A DNA stretch of 32,700 nucleotides from assembly GCA_030648295.1 (NCBI GenBank), contig JAUSID010000259.1, positions 1 to 32,700 of the forward strand, written 5' to 3'. Each line of letters starts with the position of its first letter. Within the stretch, counting starts at the first letter, position 1. The stretch is from Opitutaceae bacterium (GTDB lineage: Bacteria > Verrucomicrobiota > Verrucomicrobiia > Opitutales > Opitutaceae). Made by a program: the position numbers and the translations under genes. The notes under the pieces were generated by a model. The model did not search any database, was not told the origin of the DNA, and saw nothing but the letters and a program-made list of their open reading frames with translations. This document shows, piece by piece, positions 1 to 3,983 of this stretch.

Positions 1-52
1 CCGGCTCCCGCTGTTTGGAAGACAGCCGTGCATCTATGAACACCTCTCGGGC
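1..52 (-). tRNA. tRNA-Gly(UCC), 5' part only, cut by the window edge
   Basis: Read on the minus strand from 52 leftwards there is a 7-nt acceptor 5' strand (GCCCGAG), a 4-bp D stem GTGT/GCAC, and a perfect 5-bp anticodon stem GCTGT/ACAGC with loop CTTCCAA, giving anticodon UCC. The T arm and 3' acceptor strand lie outside the window. The D loop TCATAGAT carries A-G where G18-G19 are expected, the same change as in the three neighbouring tRNAs. It is the last visible member of a minus-strand tRNA array. The discriminator base and the acceptor pairing cannot be checked here. Confidence 0.7.
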
Positions 53-156
53 AAAATTGGCCGTGCCATCCGTAGCCTCGACCGCCGGCGGACGAATGCC
101 CTCCTGCGCCAAGGCTACGAAGGGCATCCTTCGTTCTCGCTGCGCTCGGCGAAGGA
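53..156. repeat. Palindromic repeat element between tRNA-Ala and tRNA-Gly
   Basis: The spacer is made of nested inverted repeats: catccttcg/cgaaggatg at its right end, and cgtagcct/aggctacg across its middle, around an internal CCGCCGGCGG palindrome. The words caaggctacg and gaagg also occur in the larger intergenic elements at 15009-15102 and 19882-19977, so this looks like a member of the same or a related family. No tRNA fold and no credible ORF is seen in it. Confidence 0.5.
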
Positions 157-231
157 TGGTGGAGCAGGACGGTTACGCTCCGTCGCCTCCGCATTGCGAG
201 TGCGGCGTGCTTCTATTGGCACTACAGCCCC
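157..231 (-). tRNA. tRNA-Ala(CGC) with non-canonical elbow
   Basis: A 75-nt minus-strand gene ends in an encoded CCA (157-159) with A73. The acceptor stem has a G3-U70 pair, the classical alanine identity element, and one U-U mismatch at 6-67. The D stem is GTGC/GCAC. The anticodon stem CCGCA/TGCGG is perfect with loop CTCGCAA, giving anticodon CGC. The T stem GACGG/CCGTC is perfect. The D loop (CAATAGAA) has A18-G19 instead of G18-G19, and the T loop is AGCGTAA, with G55 and swapped bases at 54 and 58. Only 3 bp separate it from tRNA-Cys, so both probably lie on one precursor. Confidence 0.75.
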
Positions 232-234
232 AGT

Positions 235-310
235 TGGACACGACGGCGGGACTCGCACCCGCGAACCTCAGCTTTGCAAACTGGTCCCTTGGCTGCTCGG
301 GCACGTCGTG
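235..310 (-). tRNA. tRNA-Cys(GCA) with non-canonical elbow
   Basis: A 76-nt minus-strand gene with a perfect 7-bp acceptor stem CACGACG/CGTCGTG, U73 and encoded CCA. U73 plus anticodon GCA are the main cysteine identity elements. The D stem is CCC/GGG. The anticodon arm is CCAGT/GCTGA around TTGCAAA, with a mismatch at 27-43. The T stem GCGGG/CCCGC is perfect. The T loop is TGCGAGT, so the usual G-T-psi-C is G-U-G-C, and the D loop has A18-G19. The gene lies between tRNA-Glu (257 bp upstream) and tRNA-Ala (3 bp downstream). Confidence 0.82.
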
Positions 311-384
311 AAAATAGAACCGCGGCTCAGGTCACTCGGCATCGGAAGACTTCTCCGACGTCCGTCCTCAATGACCGCGGGTTA

Positions 385-409
385 AGGAATTCGCGCAGCG
401 CGAATTCCT
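385..409. repeat. 25-bp perfect palindrome, copy 1
   Basis: Arms aggaattcgcg and cgcgaattcct (11 bp) flank a 3-nt loop cag. It lies between tRNA-Cys and tRNA-Glu. A second near-identical copy with loop ctg is at 708-732 and a degenerate copy at 517-540. There is no T-tract, so it does not look like an intrinsic terminator. Transcript processing, pausing or a repeat element are possible. Confidence 0.7.
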
Positions 410-516
410 GAAAACTCGGCCCCTGCTGGGCTTGGGCCGCCGGCTGGCTTCTTGTGGATCCGAGAGGGCGAAGCGGACTCCGGCCTCGGATCGAGAACCG
501 GCGCTTCCTTAAGGAA

Positions 517-540
517 AGGAATTTCGCTCCGCGAATTCCT
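517..540. repeat. Degenerate copy of the EcoRI-site palindrome
   Basis: aggaatttcg and cgcgaattcct arms match imperfectly around a short loop. The copy lies 28 bp from the 3' end of tRNA-Glu. The rest of 410-567 shows another inverted pair (gatccgag/ctcggatc near 457-492) but no gene. Confidence 0.5.
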
Positions 541-567
541 AGAGTGGAATTCAGCAGAACAAGAAAA

Positions 568-643
568 TGGTCGCCCGTCCGGGTGCTGCCCCCGGTCCTC
601 CGCCTTGAAAGAGCGGCGATCTAGCTGGTAATACCAACGGGCG
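568..643 (-). tRNA. tRNA-Glu(UUC) with non-canonical elbow
   Basis: A 76-nt minus-strand gene with a perfect 7-bp acceptor stem CGCCCGT/ACGGGCG, A73 and encoded CCA. The anticodon arm CCGCT/GGCGG encloses CTTTCAA, giving anticodon UUC. The T stem CCGGG/CCCGG is perfect but the T loop is GGCAGCA, which keeps only C56 of the conserved T-psi-C-R-A pattern. The D stem is weak (3 bp, GGT/ATC) and the D loop reads CCAG where CCGG is usual in tRNA-Glu, again A18-G19. It is the first tRNA of the array in the direction of transcription. It could be a decaying tRNA, but the perfect stems argue against simple decay. Confidence 0.68.
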
Positions 644-907
644 ATGAAATTGAAACGCGGCCGGCATCGCCGTTTAACGCCCTGGGGCGCACCGCGTGTT
701 TGATTTTAGGAATTCGCGCTGCGCGAATTCCTTTCGCAAAAAAGAACACACACCGTCGTCCCTCTCATCAGACGAAGTCCGATGGATTGGACGGCCGCAG
801 GATTTGCACGCGGACGTTGGGCTGATTGGCTGGGCTCAGCGATGAAGCCGCTTATGGAATATGGAAAGAGTTCTGACTCGTTCCCGGAAGCGGCCCCCTC
901 AGGGCAC
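644..907. other. Intergenic spacer between RNA terminator and tRNA-Glu
   Basis: No credible gene is seen. It contains the palindrome at 708-732. On the minus strand it also holds a 7-bp inverted pair (GCCGCTT/AAGCGGC, near 846-892) and a G-U-G-C-A-A-A-T stretch close to a CCA, which looks like a relic T arm but does not fold into a complete tRNA. Confidence 0.4.
708..732. repeat. 25-bp perfect palindrome, copy 2
   Basis: Arms aggaattcgcg and cgcgaattcct flank loop ctg. It is the reverse complement of copy 1 (loop cag) and lies 65 bp upstream of tRNA-Glu in the direction of transcription. Confidence 0.7.
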
Positions 908-936
908 AAAAAAACCCACTTCCGGGCGGAAGTGGG
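908..936 (-). terminator. Intrinsic terminator on the minus strand
   Basis: On the minus strand a 9-bp perfect stem CCCACTTCC/GGAAGTGGG with a 4-nt loop is followed directly by seven T residues (908-914). The plus strand has no T-tract, so the direction is clear. It ends the structured RNA candidate at 937-1139. Confidence 0.8.
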
Positions 937-1139
937 CCTCGACGTGAGGCTACAAATTAGCCTCGGCGTTAGGTAACACCACTTCCTGGAGGATTCGCGT
1001 AATCGGGTCGAATAAGACCTGGTTCACTACGCATCCTCGATGTCGTCGCCTGGGGTTGAATACCCGCACACAACGTATGCCATCCGGTTAACCGAAGGGC
1101 TGATAGCTGTATAAATTGTGCGGATTTCATGGGAAGTGG
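908..1139 (-). ncRNA. Structured RNA candidate with attenuator-like alternative pairings
   Basis: The minus strand contains an 11-bp helix with a 2-nt bulge (989-1001 with 1028-1038), an inner GGTC/GACC hairpin, a perfect 7-bp hairpin (946-952 with 958-964), a 4-bp hairpin at 1053-1065 and a 7-bp long-range pair (1064-1070 with 1117-1123), then a terminator. The sequence CCACTTCC or its complement occurs four times in alternating order: 1132-1139, 979-986, 928-935 and 916-923 (plus coordinates). Segment 1 can pair with 2 and segment 3 with 4 (terminator), or 2 with 3 (antiterminator). This is the layout of an attenuator or of a riboswitch with a closing stem. It could also be a stable small RNA. 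No known family is recognised, and the 5' end is a guess. Confidence 0.45.
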
Positions 1140-1216
1140 CAGAGAGACGTTTGAAGGTGTGATTAGTTACTACGGCTGGTGAGAAACGAAATTCAAGGGG
1201 TGGTTCGAAGTATTTT

Positions 1217-1432
1217 CTAAGATTCGTGGATGATGCGTCGAATGAGCTTTCGGGCGGCCTGCCGCTCCCGCTTGGAGACGCACCGCTTATTCCAAGGTCG
1301 AAGGTGTTTCCACCATTCGGGAGGAGCGGTCAGCGTATCCTTGCGGACGTGAGCCATCTGATTGCGCAGCCAGCTTACCTCATCCTGGTTTTCGTTGCCA
1401 TGGGAGTTCTCGTTGGATACCTGACTTTGCAA
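1217..1432 (-). CDS. Small basic hypothetical protein
   Basis: The frame opens right after a stop codon with a TTG at 1432 (71 residues). An ATG at 1357 would give a 46-residue protein and is the more usual start codon. The C-terminal half is rich in Trp, Lys and Arg (PPEWWKHLRPWNKR, then KRERQAARKLIRR), which looks like a real compact basic protein that may bind nucleic acid. No family is recognised. Read from TTG it would start back to back with the LysR gene, leaving 2 bp. It lies just upstream, on the same strand, of the structured RNA candidate. It may instead be a chance ORF. Confidence 0.4.
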   Translation of the reverse strand: MQSQVSNENSHGNENQDEVSWLRNQMAHVRKDTLTAPPEWWKHLRPWNKRCVSKRERQAARKLIRRIIHES

Positions 1433-1434
1433 TC

Positions 1435-2343
1435 ATGTTTGAAAATCTTTTCTCCGAACGCGGCCTTTCGCTGGACCGGCTGAAGGTTTTGATCGAAGTG
1501 CGCGATGCCGGCAGCATCGCGCAGGCGGCTCCTGGCGATCCGGTGCGTCAGAGCCAATACAGCCGGCAGTTACGTGAACTCTCAGAGTTCTTCGGCTGTG
1601 AAGTCGCCCAGCGCCGGGGAAAAATCTTGAAGCTCACGACGCAGGGCGAGCGACTCGCGGAGCTTGCCCGCGAGCAATTGCGTTCGCTCGAGGATTTTCG
1701 GGCGGAATGCAAAGAGCAAAGCGTCGCGTTCACCATTGGCGCCGGCGACAGCTTGATTCAATGGCTCGTGATTCCACGGCTCGGAAAAGTCATCGACGAA
1801 TTTCCGGGGACGCATTTCGCGACCACCAACCTCCGCACAAACGACATTGTCCAACAACTCACGGACGGTCGGATCGATTTTGGCATCATTCGCAAGAATG
1901 CGACCGCGCCCGGACTGAAATCGGTTTCCCTGGGTGTTGTCAGTTATGTCGCGCTGGTCCCGGACCAATTGGCGCGCCACAAAAAGAAGCTCACGTTGCG
2001 ACAGGCGTTGGCTGAAATCCCGCTCGCTACGCAGACCACCGATGGCCAATTCACGTCCGGGCTGCGGGCCATTGCGAAGGCGCTCGACGTACTCCTGAAG
2101 CCCGCGCTCGCGTGCCAGTCGTTTCCACAAACGGTGGCCGCACTGCGGTCCGGCCGGTTTTGGGCCATTGTGCCGGAAATCGCCGCGCCCGACTTCCCGT
2201 CGGGTGCGCCGCATCGGATTTCCGACTCATCCCTGCGGCAGTTGGATCGTGAAGCCATGCTTGCCTGGAATCCGCGCTTGGTGCGAATTCGGCCGAACGC
2301 GGCGAAAATCGCGACCAAGCTTCAGCATGTCTTGGCGCTTTGA
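1435..2343 (+). CDS. LysR-type transcriptional regulator
   Basis: A 302-residue protein of normal LysR length. Residues about 11-70 form the winged helix-turn-helix: LKVLIEVRDAGSIAQAA, then SQYSRQLRELSEFFG and the LTTQGERL wing. A periplasmic-binding-protein-like effector domain follows from about 90 (FTIGAGDSLIQWLVIPRL, TNDIVQQLTDGRIDFGIIR). LysR proteins usually bind as tetramers and control a divergent neighbour in response to a small ligand. Here the divergent neighbour is the small basic ORF and, beyond it, the structured RNA and tRNA array. The ATG has no clear Shine-Dalgarno site. The effector is unknown. The assignment to the LysR family is firm, the target is inference. Confidence 0.88.
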   Translation: MFENLFSERGLSLDRLKVLIEVRDAGSIAQAAPGDPVRQSQYSRQLRELSEFFGCEVAQRRGKILKLTTQGERLAELAREQLRSLEDFRAECKEQSVAFTIGAGDSLIQWLVIPRLGKVIDEFPGTHFATTNLRTNDIVQQLTDGRIDFGIIRKNATAPGLKSVSLGVVSYVALVPDQLARHKKKLTLRQALAEIPLATQTTDGQFTSGLRAIAKALDVLLKPALACQSFPQTVAALRSGRFWAIVPEIAAPDFPSGAPHRISDSSLRQLDREAMLAWNPRLVRIRPNAAKIATKLQHVLAL

Positions 2344-2460: not shown

Positions 2461-3765
2461 TTACCCAATTTTGTCTGGTGAGTCGGTAGCTGCAGGTGCT
2501 GCGTGGACCGTCGGCACCGCCCTGGGAATATGGGGTTTCGCCTGGAGGCGGGGGACTTTCTCTCCCAACCCCGCCATGTTCGTCGGCTTCATTTGAAAAT
2601 ACGCAGCCCCTTCCTTGGCGAGCACTGTGAAATTTAGATAACTCTGCTTCAGTACGTCCTCCGAATTTCCCATGTTCTTGATCAGGAATCCGAGGTCATT
2701 GTGCAGGGGGTAGTGATGGGAACCGTAACAGTGGCGGAGGATGTCGTTGTCCCAAGCGGACTCCTCACCATCAACTTTGACCCCGGCCGCGCGTTGGATC
2801 TGTTCAAAGGCCTTCCGAGAAAAATAGCCCGGAGCAAGGCCCGCCGCCTTACATTTCTCGAGAATGCCGGGCAACTGGTCGTGCATGGCGACGGTCCTCG
2901 TCTGCTTCTTTTTCGCGCGAAACCCGGTGATGACGCCGTTTTCAAACGAGAAATTGCTCCAGTCGGGCTTCATGCGCTTCACCTCGTCCGGCCGCATGCC
3001 GGACAACATGCAACTCGCAAAATACGGCAGCATGGCACCCTTGATTCGCTTGCGACCGCAAGGCTCCGCGGCGGCGGCATCCAGGAGAGCCTGGCACTGC
3101 GCGACCTTGAAGACCGCCACCTCGCCGTCGTTGGTGACCTTGGGCCGGTCGATTCCCTCGGTCAGATTCTTGGCGAGATGCTTTTCGTCCAGCAGGAAGA
3201 CCGAAAAATTGTGCAACAGGTCATAACGGTCGCGACGGGTGCGCACCTCAACCGACGTGTCGAAAATGAACGCTTTGACTTTCTCCGGAGACATTCCCGA
3301 CACGCGAGCGATCTTCGCCTTCGGATTGCCGACGAACTTCTTCAAAATCGACGCCGTGATGTCGGCCGTGATCGCCTGGTTGCCGCGGCGCAGGCGGCGC
3401 TCCTTGAAGTTTTCAATGGCCTTCTCCGCCTCGATGTCGACGACGACGACGGTCGCGTGGGTGAGGTAGTAGTCGACCGCCGTCATGAGGGAACCCGTGG
3501 GGAGGGCGGTTCGGAGGCGCTGATAGGCGAGTTCCGCGGTGTGGAGTTCCTGGTCGGTTTGAAATATTGTGAGCGCAGCCCGGGTCGGCGCACTTTTACC
3601 TTGATTGGCTGATCGGATAAGCCCATCCATGAACACTTCGGCCGCATCGCGGGTCGGAAAGTTCTTTTGCACTGAGTGCCCAGAGATCGTCCCGGTCACA
3701 CGCGAGACCAAGTTTCCGCTTGGGTTTTGGAACGGGATGATTTTGAGGGTGTGTTTGAAGGTCAT
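2461..3765 (-). CDS. Tyrosine recombinase / phage-type integrase with atypical active site
   Basis: A 434-residue protein with an N-terminal arm/core-binding part (about 1-215) and a C-terminal catalytic domain. Arg258 in LSGMRPDEVKRM is the first catalytic arginine, Arg344 in DILRHCYGSH the second, and Tyr376 in KQSYLN the likely nucleophile. The His of the usual HxxR box is Asp341, and the usual GHS is GNS (Asn367). A Pro/Ala-rich tail ends the protein. Such enzymes integrate or excise mobile DNA, often at tRNA genes, and tRNA-Pro lies 141 bp from its start. It is the only mobility gene in the window. It may be a full-length but altered or domesticated enzyme. The gene is convergent with the LysR gene. 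Confidence 0.85.
   Translation of the reverse strand: MTFKHTLKIIPFQNPSGNLVSRVTGTISGHSVQKNFPTRDAAEVFMDGLIRSANQGKSAPTRAALTIFQTDQELHTAELAYQRLRTALPTGSLMTAVDYYLTHATVVVVDIEAEKAIENFKERRLRRGNQAITADITASILKKFVGNPKAKIARVSGMSPEKVKAFIFDTSVEVRTRRDRYDLLHNFSVFLLDEKHLAKNLTEGIDRPKVTNDGEVAVFKVAQCQALLDAAAAEPCGRKRIKGAMLPYFASCMLSGMRPDEVKRMKPDWSNFSFENGVITGFRAKKKQTRTVAMHDQLPGILEKCKAAGLAPGYFSRKAFEQIQRAAGVKVDGEESAWDNDILRHCYGSHHYPLHNDLGFLIKNMGNSEDVLKQSYLNFTVLAKEGAAYFQMKPTNMAGLGEKVPRLQAKPHIPRAVPTVHAAPAATDSPDKIG

Positions 3766-3906: not shown

Positions 3907-3983
<77 letters not shown>

Follow-up and report, generated by a model that had tools for sequence, protein, structure and literature searches.

Why should a bacterium hold, beside its ordinary tRNA genes, a second set in which the elbow contact between D loop and T loop has been exchanged? 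The question is raised by the left end of contig JAUSID010000259.1 of an Opitutaceae bacterium. The window analysed here is this entire contig (32,700 bases; C15 of the source genome G000, which comprises 9.1 Mb in 294 contigs). At positions 1-643 the window carries a minus-strand tRNA array, of which the contig end leaves just the 5′ part. Read leftwards from 643, the order is tRNA-Glu(TTC), an element A, an element B, tRNA-Cys(GCA), tRNA-Ala(CGC) and a fragment of tRNA-Gly(TCC). These genes carry A18 and, where the T loop is visible, G55 in place of G18 and U55. We found that A18-G55 is a real alternative elbow pair, maintained over a full decoding set. The tRNA genes of the window are as follows; the relative G029, used for comparison, holds a complete array at locus L107.

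568 to 643, minus strand: tRNA-Glu(TTC), first gene of the array here and in G029 (parser); A18-G19, T loop GGCAGCA (G54, G55, C56 and G58), encoded CCA
235 to 310, minus strand: tRNA-Cys(GCA) (Rfam 48.7 bits, ARAGORN, parser); A18-G19, T loop TGCGAGT (G55-C56), U73, encoded CCA
157 to 231, minus strand: tRNA-Ala(CGC) (Rfam 44.1 bits, parser); A18-G19, T loop AGCGTAA (A54, G55, C56 and T58), G3:U70, encoded CCA
1 to 52, minus strand: 5′ part of tRNA-Gly(TCC), cut by the contig end (sequence); A18-G19; complete counterpart in G029 at L107:7630-7704
3907 to 3983, plus strand: ordinary tRNA-Pro(CGG) with G18-G19 and T55 (Rfam 68.8 bits), an in-window control outside the island

A sequence-only reading of the window had proposed four minus-strand genes for tRNA-Glu, -Cys, -Ala and -Gly, with A-G replacing G18-G19 in all four and G55-C56 in the three visible T loops. 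Both proposals held. Cys and Ala were matched by Rfam, and Glu, Cys and Ala by our parser; Gly is a fragment. A18-G19 was present in 4/4 D loops (TACCAGCT, GAGCAGCCAA and CAATAGAA in the three complete genes, TTCATAGAT in Gly). The identity elements named in that reading were present (G3:U70 in Ala and U73 in Cys), the three complete genes encode CCA, and the tRNA-Pro was canonical, as it had stated. The Rfam search of the window (up to E≤1) missed the Glu gene and the Gly fragment. Its Infernal alignments of Cys and Ala placed A opposite consensus G18, G opposite G19 and G opposite U55; the normal placement of G18-G19 and U55, for which the sequence-only reading had allowed, was not obtained. 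Because these alignments agree, the elbow reading is independent of our own parser, and a parser artefact is ruled out for these two genes.

The swap is confined to the array. An Rfam tRNA family search of G000 gave 72 matches, 23 in array pieces (2 on C15, 11 on C17 and 10 on C181) and 49 elsewhere, including the window tRNA-Pro. Of these 49 ordinary tRNAs, 48 were parsed and T55 was present in 48/48; the unparsed one reads GGGTTCGACTCC. That A18/G55 might mark all chromosomal tRNAs of the organism was therefore not the case. Among the 46 best-parsed ordinary tRNAs, T54-A58, T8 and T33 were each found in 46/46, and G-G stood at an allowed D-loop place in 45. The exception, tRNA-Ala(CGC) at C149:52075-52147 (L026), reads G18-A19, and its T56 compensates for the change at 19. 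With T55, a fixed T-arm pattern occurred at 39 places in G000, 41 in G029 and 32 in the relative G080, one of the 32 being a Met gene within the array. The same pattern with G55 occurred at 21 places in G000, all except one on C15, C17 and C181, and at 18 places in G029; among the ten G029 matches listed, all were in the array. A genome-wide oddity is ruled out by the T55 of the ordinary tRNAs and by these T55 pattern counts. The G080 array contains one ordinary Met tRNA (G18-G19, T55; L117:5289-5363, array strand) amid 34 G55 genes. TruB_N was found once per genome in 8/8 genomes checked. Ordinary tRNAs thus probably carry pseudouridine at position 55 (Psi55), and G55 cannot be Psi55.

The complete array was seen in G029, a single contig of 5,957,605 bases, where it comprises 38 tRNA genes for all 20 amino acids, with several isoacceptors each for Leu, Ser, Arg and Thr. 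With U34 reading four bases it reaches 60/61 sense codons; with U34 limited to A and G, 56/61. In this tally one mis-parsed Ser gene was set aside, and the anticodons Ser CGA, Arg TCT and Ser GGA were added by eye. The concerted, non-random change at 18 and 55 that the sequence-only reading had proposed for a dedicated set, distinct from the other tRNAs of the genome, is thus present, in an array extending well beyond four genes. An array tRNA with anticodon TAT (nominally Ile, AUA; L107:9620-9711, also on C181 and in G025) has a variable arm of ~23 bases, as do Leu, Ser and Tyr tRNAs.

For array counts we used CCA-anchored tRNAs with a score of at least 17 from 15 array pieces (n=270); genes without encoded CCA were dropped, so that 34/38 G029 genes were kept, and overlapping candidates were settled by score. 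G55 was present in 266/270 and T55 in 4. Ten further loci gave 136 G55 and 3 T55 (n=139); three of these loci (L264-L266) are from other orders of the same class. Among the 266 G55 tRNAs, A18-G19 was found at an allowed D-loop place in 238, and G-G in 11 if G-G was preferred. The T55 array tRNAs carry G18 in 4/4 (two by rule, two by eye): two are Met tRNAs with GG/TC, and the two read by eye are Arg(TCT), with G18-C19/T55-G56, and Arg(TCG), with G18-T19/T55-A56. Position 19 follows position 56 likewise: with C56, G followed the purine at 18 in 240/256; with G56, C19 was found in 9/9; with A56, T was found in 2/5. The 54-58 pair (n=270) is T-A in 190, A-T in 27, G-G in 24, C-C in 15, C-A in 11 and other in 3, and 20 anticodons have more than one state at 54-58 across arrays, with 55 remaining G. 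Two-sided stem changes between same-anticodon genes kept pairing in 1536/1624 cases, a figure biased upward in that the parser demands pairing. Decay into pseudogenes was rejected as a main explanation, in view of these mostly conserved two-sided changes and of a G55 that is constant while 54-58 varies.

Descent of the whole set from one gene was also considered. The best ordinary stem match of the G029 array genes had only 53-74% identity. The best ordinary match was of the same amino acid in 9/34 genes of G029 (permutation mean 2.3, maximum 9), 6/35 of G080 (1.7, 8) and 10/33 of G025 (2.0, 9). The ordinary tRNAs of G000 alone served as reference, which makes this a weak test. Remoulding of a single tRNA into the whole set is not favoured by it, since same-amino-acid matches lie above the permutation mean.

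The array counts come from related genomes and are not independent events; viral contigs provided an independent check. A scan of viral contigs with the G55 T-arm pattern gave at least 120 loci, and choice by the T arm leaves the D loop unselected. Parses that scored below 19.0, lacked G53-C61 or were exact duplicates were excluded, and near-duplicates stayed. Among 202 parsed viral tRNAs, T55 went with G18-G19 in 159/165 and G55 with G-G in 0/35 (Fisher p 3e-33, in which related contigs may repeat). The G55 tRNAs had A-G in 31/35; of the other four, three have C after A18, with G56. Because 18/55 and 19/56 covary in the arrays and viral contigs show the same association, we regard A18-G55 as a real alternative elbow pair. 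A few viral loci are mostly G55 (among counted tRNAs, L124 3/3, L176 4/5 and L229 3/4), and most mix the two states. Evidently A18-G55 recurs among mobile tRNAs as an alternative elbow pair; what is distinctive here is its adoption by a complete set. A PHROGs scan of nine proteins from L190, L124 and L176 matched 7, including HNH, endonuclease VII, methyltransferase, phosphoesterase-like and RNA ligase proteins.

Beyond the array, the window holds the start of a conserved island, whose order is LysR gene, leader with terminator, inverted repeat, array, inverted repeat, HNH gene, sigma factor gene and RtcB gene. The sequence-only reading listed the tRNAs of 1-643 correctly and missed the two structured non-tRNA elements at 317-383 and 416-507. 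The remaining features of this part of the window are as follows.

317 to 383, minus strand: element B, a conserved structured non-tRNA RNA with loop GAAGTCT (nhmmer, consensus fold)
416 to 507, minus strand: element A, a second conserved structured non-tRNA RNA; it lies between the Glu(TTC) and Gly(GCC) positions (nhmmer, consensus fold)
734 to 760, minus strand: left inverted repeat flanking the array; its arms pair better with their own partners than with those of other loci (permutation p 0.0002)
908 to 936, minus strand: intrinsic terminator, within the conserved leader that separates LysR from the array (pattern search)
1435 to 2343, plus strand: LysR-family regulator, divergent from the array (Pfam LysR_substrate 1.5e-20, HTH_1 1.5e-8)

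LysR points away from the array, as it does in the window. tblastn over 31 loci found LysR in 17 and RtcB in 18, the two together in 16. HNH was the route to most of the loci, so its presence is no test of linkage, and that of LysR and RtcB is. G441 and G297, which were found by the T-arm pattern, do contain HNH; the other-order arrays gave a 45% match in L265 and none in L264 and L266. The array HNH protein (L032:10542-11177) matched Pfam HNH_4 at 6.4e-7, and its HNH part weakly resembles Cas9d and IscB (4.8e-12 and 6.1e-5, both falling far short of the model cut-offs). Downstream of HNH are a FliA/WhiG-like sigma factor (132.6 bits, below the model cut-off), an AAA or DIP1984-like gene and RtcB; G029 has in addition Band_7, DUF4145, two RlaP and a phosphoesterase (Pfam). 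The RtcB ligase matched Pfam PF01139 at 6.5e-31 (108.4 bits; cut-off 27), and all NCBIfam RtcB models stayed below their cut-offs; it is therefore a divergent RtcB.

The leader is conserved across six aligned loci, and the intrinsic terminator (≤2 mismatches) was found in 14/20 array pieces. The inverted repeat was found upstream in 15/20 pieces and downstream in 16/20; for terminator and repeats alike, some pieces do not include the end in question. The right repeat lies between the last array tRNA and the HNH gene (C17, about 2251-2277). In 13 loci with both arms, the mean paired length was 18.1 bases for the two arms of one locus and 14.8 for arms mixed between loci (permutation p 0.0002). 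The arms covary, as do those of pre-rRNA processing stems; the same would be expected of terminal repeats that bound a mobile unit. Element B was matched by nhmmer in 15/25 distinct loci including the window, with kept two-sided changes at 9/21 pairs and several pairs broken in some rows; its loop GAAGTCT is almost invariant. Element A was matched in 9/25 distinct loci including the window, with kept two-sided changes at 7/25 pairs and some broken in some rows. The corresponding search rows were 19/31 for element B and 12/31 for element A, 6 of the 31 loci being second copies of contigs. An Rfam search over window 1-1300 at E≤1 matched neither element, and a promoter scan of window 1-1500 found none.

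The spread of the island across family genomes is patchy. LysR homologues (E≤1e-40) were present in 25/110 family genomes including G000; the array was seen in the 12 of these 25 that were examined for it. The array HNH protein occurred at ≥69% identity in 14/142 genomes searched including G000, with a fragment in G016, and a paralogue of ~40% identity was present in most of the remaining genomes. A scan of named genomes gave 19 loci, including Geminisphaera colitermitum TAV2 (two), Ereboglobus sp. PH5-10, Opitutaceae metagenome-assembled genomes (MAGs) and a MAG labelled Akkermansia muciniphila, from which the family is, with high probability, Opitutaceae.

The conserved cluster with RNA-repair genes suggests a role in emergency replacement of damaged tRNAs. 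At a probability of about 0.5, we infer that the array, as part of an RNA-repair island, supplies replacement tRNAs on induction, with an elbow that avoids something reading G18-U55. The full decoding set, the constrained structure and the linkage to RtcB and RlaP all fit a replacement set. As putative elongators, the array tRNAs parse as cloverleaves with G3:U70 in Ala and U73 in Cys, but U33 is present in 233/270 and C33 in the other 37. The island would stay switched off as long as translation and tRNA are intact; upon damage to either, LysR and the sigma factor would turn on one long transcript, in which the inverted repeats would pair as a stem, and cleavage there would free the tRNA precursor from the mRNA. 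Host enzymes would charge the array tRNAs, which would stand in for damaged ones on the ordinary ribosome while RtcB and RlaP mend broken RNA. The swapped elbow would hide the set from a damaging agent that depends on G18-U55 (or on Psi55/Gm18), be it a nuclease, a toxin or an enzyme that modifies tRNA, and the 19-56 pair, used by ribosome and enzymes, would be retained. The array does mostly keep 19-56 and re-pairs 18-55. We think avoidance of a G18-U55 reader the likeliest pressure, because G55 excludes TruB and A18 replaces G18 across isoacceptors while 54-58 varies. A broader version, which we put forward tentatively, is that the array is a second complete tRNA complement, orthogonal at the elbow: a tRNA-destroying agent (phage, rival toxin or own suicide nuclease) would remove one set and the other would sustain translation, and phages may have taken up the mark piecemeal. 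If this version is true, a class of proteins that read the G18-U55 contact, serving immunity or acting as toxins, still awaits discovery.

Several findings weigh against the replacement set with an evading elbow. No agent reading G18-U55 was found in this analysis, and expression, charging and ribosome use of the array are predictions from its sequence. Phage arrays are mostly mixed in their 18/55 state. The HNH-linked arrays of Mycobacterium avium, Nostoc, Tsukamurella and the phages Tunturi_5 and S-CRM01 have T55 in 79/82 parsed tRNAs; because such arrays keep T55, a set-wide swap is unnecessary for being a tRNA array. One-sided stem changes between same-anticodon genes kept pairing in 511/756 and broke it in 245/756, under the same parser bias. 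By rule, 27/266 G55 array genes show neither AG nor GG. Nine of these look compensated at 19-56, namely one Cys and eight Arg(TCG), in which A18-C19 or A18-T19 faces G56 or A56; three Met with a short D loop were missed by the rule; five Leu(CAG) do not fit, and the remainder are scattered. Position 33 is C in 37/270 array tRNAs and T in 233/270, against T33 throughout the best-parsed ordinary tRNAs. C33, which recurs in Leu(GAG), His, Arg(GCG) and Val, counts against calling the array anticodon loops ordinary; it may hinder decoding or may be a second evasion. T8 is missing in 75/270, and with C33 this loss means that the set diverges beyond the elbow. RtcB was not found by tblastn at C17 (L031, 20 kb searched), L109 (20 kb), L118, L254 and L258 (~7-8 kb past HNH) or in the three other-order arrays. 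It was likewise not found at L119 and L120, whose contigs end ~2.5 and ~4 kb past HNH, or at the array-less L033 and L268, and Tunturi_5 gave a weak match (25%). The inverted repeats, finally, may act at the DNA level.

Independence from modification is the main rival to evasion. An A18-G55 elbow with varied 54-58 could fold without Psi55, m5U54 and Gm18, so that new tRNAs would work at once without TruB, TrmA and TrmH; the gain would be speed and independence. G55 cannot serve TruB, though TruB is present, and with T-A at 54-58 in only 190/270, T54 and A58 are dispensable in many array tRNAs. However, T54 is not avoided, given the 190 that still carry T-A; the two states occur side by side in viral arrays; and unmodified G18-U55 tRNAs often work. 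We consider this account doubtful. Relaxed drift, in which redundant, element-borne tRNAs wander and a neutral A18-G55 is fixed by descent or gene conversion, would explain why the pair also occurs singly in the Nostoc array and in mixed viral arrays, why the stems are so far from those of ordinary tRNAs, and why T8 and T33 have been lost in 75 and 37 of 270 genes. It does not readily explain a G55 that stays constant across isoacceptors while 54-58 is multi-state in 20 anticodons, and the same-amino-acid best matches of G029 (9/34 against 2.3 by permutation) are, in that weak test, not like one remoulded gene. Drift is therefore not a likely explanation.

The inverted repeats could instead be the terminal repeats of a mobile unit, with the array as cargo, HNH as its nuclease for homing or transposition, and RtcB as an incidental neighbour. 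HNH homologues do accompany arrays on plasmids and phages, and the patchy spread of the LysR homologue is as expected of such a unit; but no transposase was noticed between the repeats, HNH lies outside them, and LysR and RtcB flank the array on either side in 16 loci, which makes this explanation unlikely. The sequence-only reading had suggested tRNAs tuned to a mobile element, which is partly supported. In favour of this are the HNH-linked arrays on plasmids and phages and the A18-G55 tRNAs of viral contigs, but no integrase or transfer module was tied to this island, and in G029 and G088 the array is on the sole contig. A XerD-like open reading frame (ORF) at window 2461-3765, which faces the 5′ end of tRNA-Pro, was considered, with that tRNA, as a candidate integrase of the island; its NCBIfam match (0.00033) scores 20 bits where the model cut-off is 330. 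The same reading had also suggested dedicated non-ribosomal aminoacyl donors, kept from translation to feed aminoacyl transferases as in staphylococci. The sole point for this is that G55 resembles the G-U-G-C motif of the staphylococcal peptidoglycan tRNA-Gly. The G029 array is a complete decoding set for 20 amino acids with several isoacceptors, more than donors would require; its tRNAs retain the 19-56 pair; and among 19 neighbour proteins scanned with Pfam, several of them without any match, no aminoacyl-tRNA-using ligase was named, neither a Fem/Mur-type ligase nor a lantibiotic dehydratase. Donor function is thus unsupported and highly improbable.

Relatives of the array HNH protein occur on plasmids of Nostoc, Mycobacterium, Tsukamurella, Paracoccus and others, and in phages. 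We fetched 12 such loci; 5 contain tRNAs and 7 none, and 82/95 ARAGORN tRNAs were parsed. A separate ARAGORN run with relaxed settings gave many calls judged false and entered no count. Among the 82 parsed, the three non-T55 tRNAs are one A18/G55 tRNA in Nostoc, one phage tRNA reading TCC and one apparent mis-parse. The Nostoc tRNA (anticodon CTC; L057:6703-6779, plasmid pNsp_d of Nostoc sp. ATCC 53789) is alone in an HNH-linked array whose 16 other parsed tRNAs have T55. Phage Tunturi_5 (L061) has a tRNA array, HNH, an annotated tRNA splicing ligase and a tRNA nucleotidyltransferase, with T55 in 12/13 parsed tRNAs and TCC in one. The tRNA array units of M. avium plasmids resemble the present array: their 26-27 tRNA genes stand close together and serve 19-20 amino acids, the anticodons duplicate those of the chromosome, and each unit has one conserved HNH. 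They are termed a putative antidefense system, in the parts of that report used here (PMC12803027). The pS2b locus of M. avium, in contrast, has T55 in its 25 parsed tRNAs, whereas here A18-G55 is set-wide and joined by LysR, sigma factor, RtcB and flanking inverted repeats. HNH-linked tRNA arrays are an established kind, and the set-wide elbow swap is not part of that kind in the arrays compared here.

According to the sections of another report drawn on here, the Anabaena trn operon of 26 tRNAs is silent, is induced by anti-translation antibiotics, and has a repressor, TrcR, that also represses rtcB (PMC10272220). It parallels what is predicted for the present system, a large silent tRNA operon for use under translational stress, and likewise has a link to rtcB; unlike here, TrcR is an RHH protein, not LysR, and the chromosomal rtcB is separate from the plasmid operon (same sections of PMC10272220). 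Bacterial Rtc and RlaP/Band-7 repair loci (by Pfam names) share RtcB, RlaP and Band_7 in one neighbourhood, but here a whole tRNA set lies upstream, with LysR and a FliA-like sigma factor as linked regulators. The staphylococcal peptidoglycan tRNA-Gly has G55 in the T loop, serves one amino acid and has lost G18-G19; the present set covers all 20 amino acids, keeps G19 beside A18 (238/266) and covaries at 18-55. Phage tRNAs evade tRNA-targeting defences through changes in the anticodon loop. The idea of a damage-proof set is shared with them, whereas here the common change is at the elbow and only C33 (37/270) stands out in the anticodon loop. No report of A18-G55 tRNAs, or of tRNA arrays in Opitutaceae, was found in the openly licensed PubMed Central literature, subscription papers being outside this scope, and the portions of PMC7912444 and PMC2444032 available to us hold nothing against novelty of the elbow swap.

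The 18-55 contact, which helps to shape nearly all known tRNAs, is generally regarded as universal. In the part of a review consulted here, Psi55 is called universally conserved, and the exposed 19-56 pair is described as a platform for ribosome and enzymes (PMC4810234). A natural, complete and evolving tRNA set with a different 18-55 pair is a test bed for the purpose of that pair. A paper cited by the review reportedly, going by its title, makes rapid translocation dependent on the 18-55 pair. What large tRNA arrays are for is still debated, and the linkage of this one to RtcB and RlaP points to a concrete role that can be tested. Should the swap serve evasion, proteins as yet unknown that recognise the tRNA elbow would be expected. 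The array also offers a natural tRNA set that can be distinguished from that of the host.

Within the G000 assembly, parsed array tRNAs number 18 on C17, 17 on C181 and 3 in the window. C17:213-2245 and the end of C181 are two similar copies of the array 3′ part in the same gene order, which may mean two strains; the stated contamination is 4%. The start of C17, judged by eye, is inside sequence that in G029 lies between tRNA-Val(GAC) and tRNA-Pro(CGG). The array middle (Trp to Val in G029), between the C15 end in Gly(TCC) and the C17 start, was not found in the G000 assembly. The C181 copy (L032) has an ORF of ~60 aa between Ser(GGA) and Ser(CGA) and an insertion within tRNA-Glu(CTC), and the C17 copy is without both. 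In the window, palindromic AGGAATTCGCG..CGCGAATTCCT repeats lie between array genes and in the leader, at 386-410, 517-540 and 708-732.

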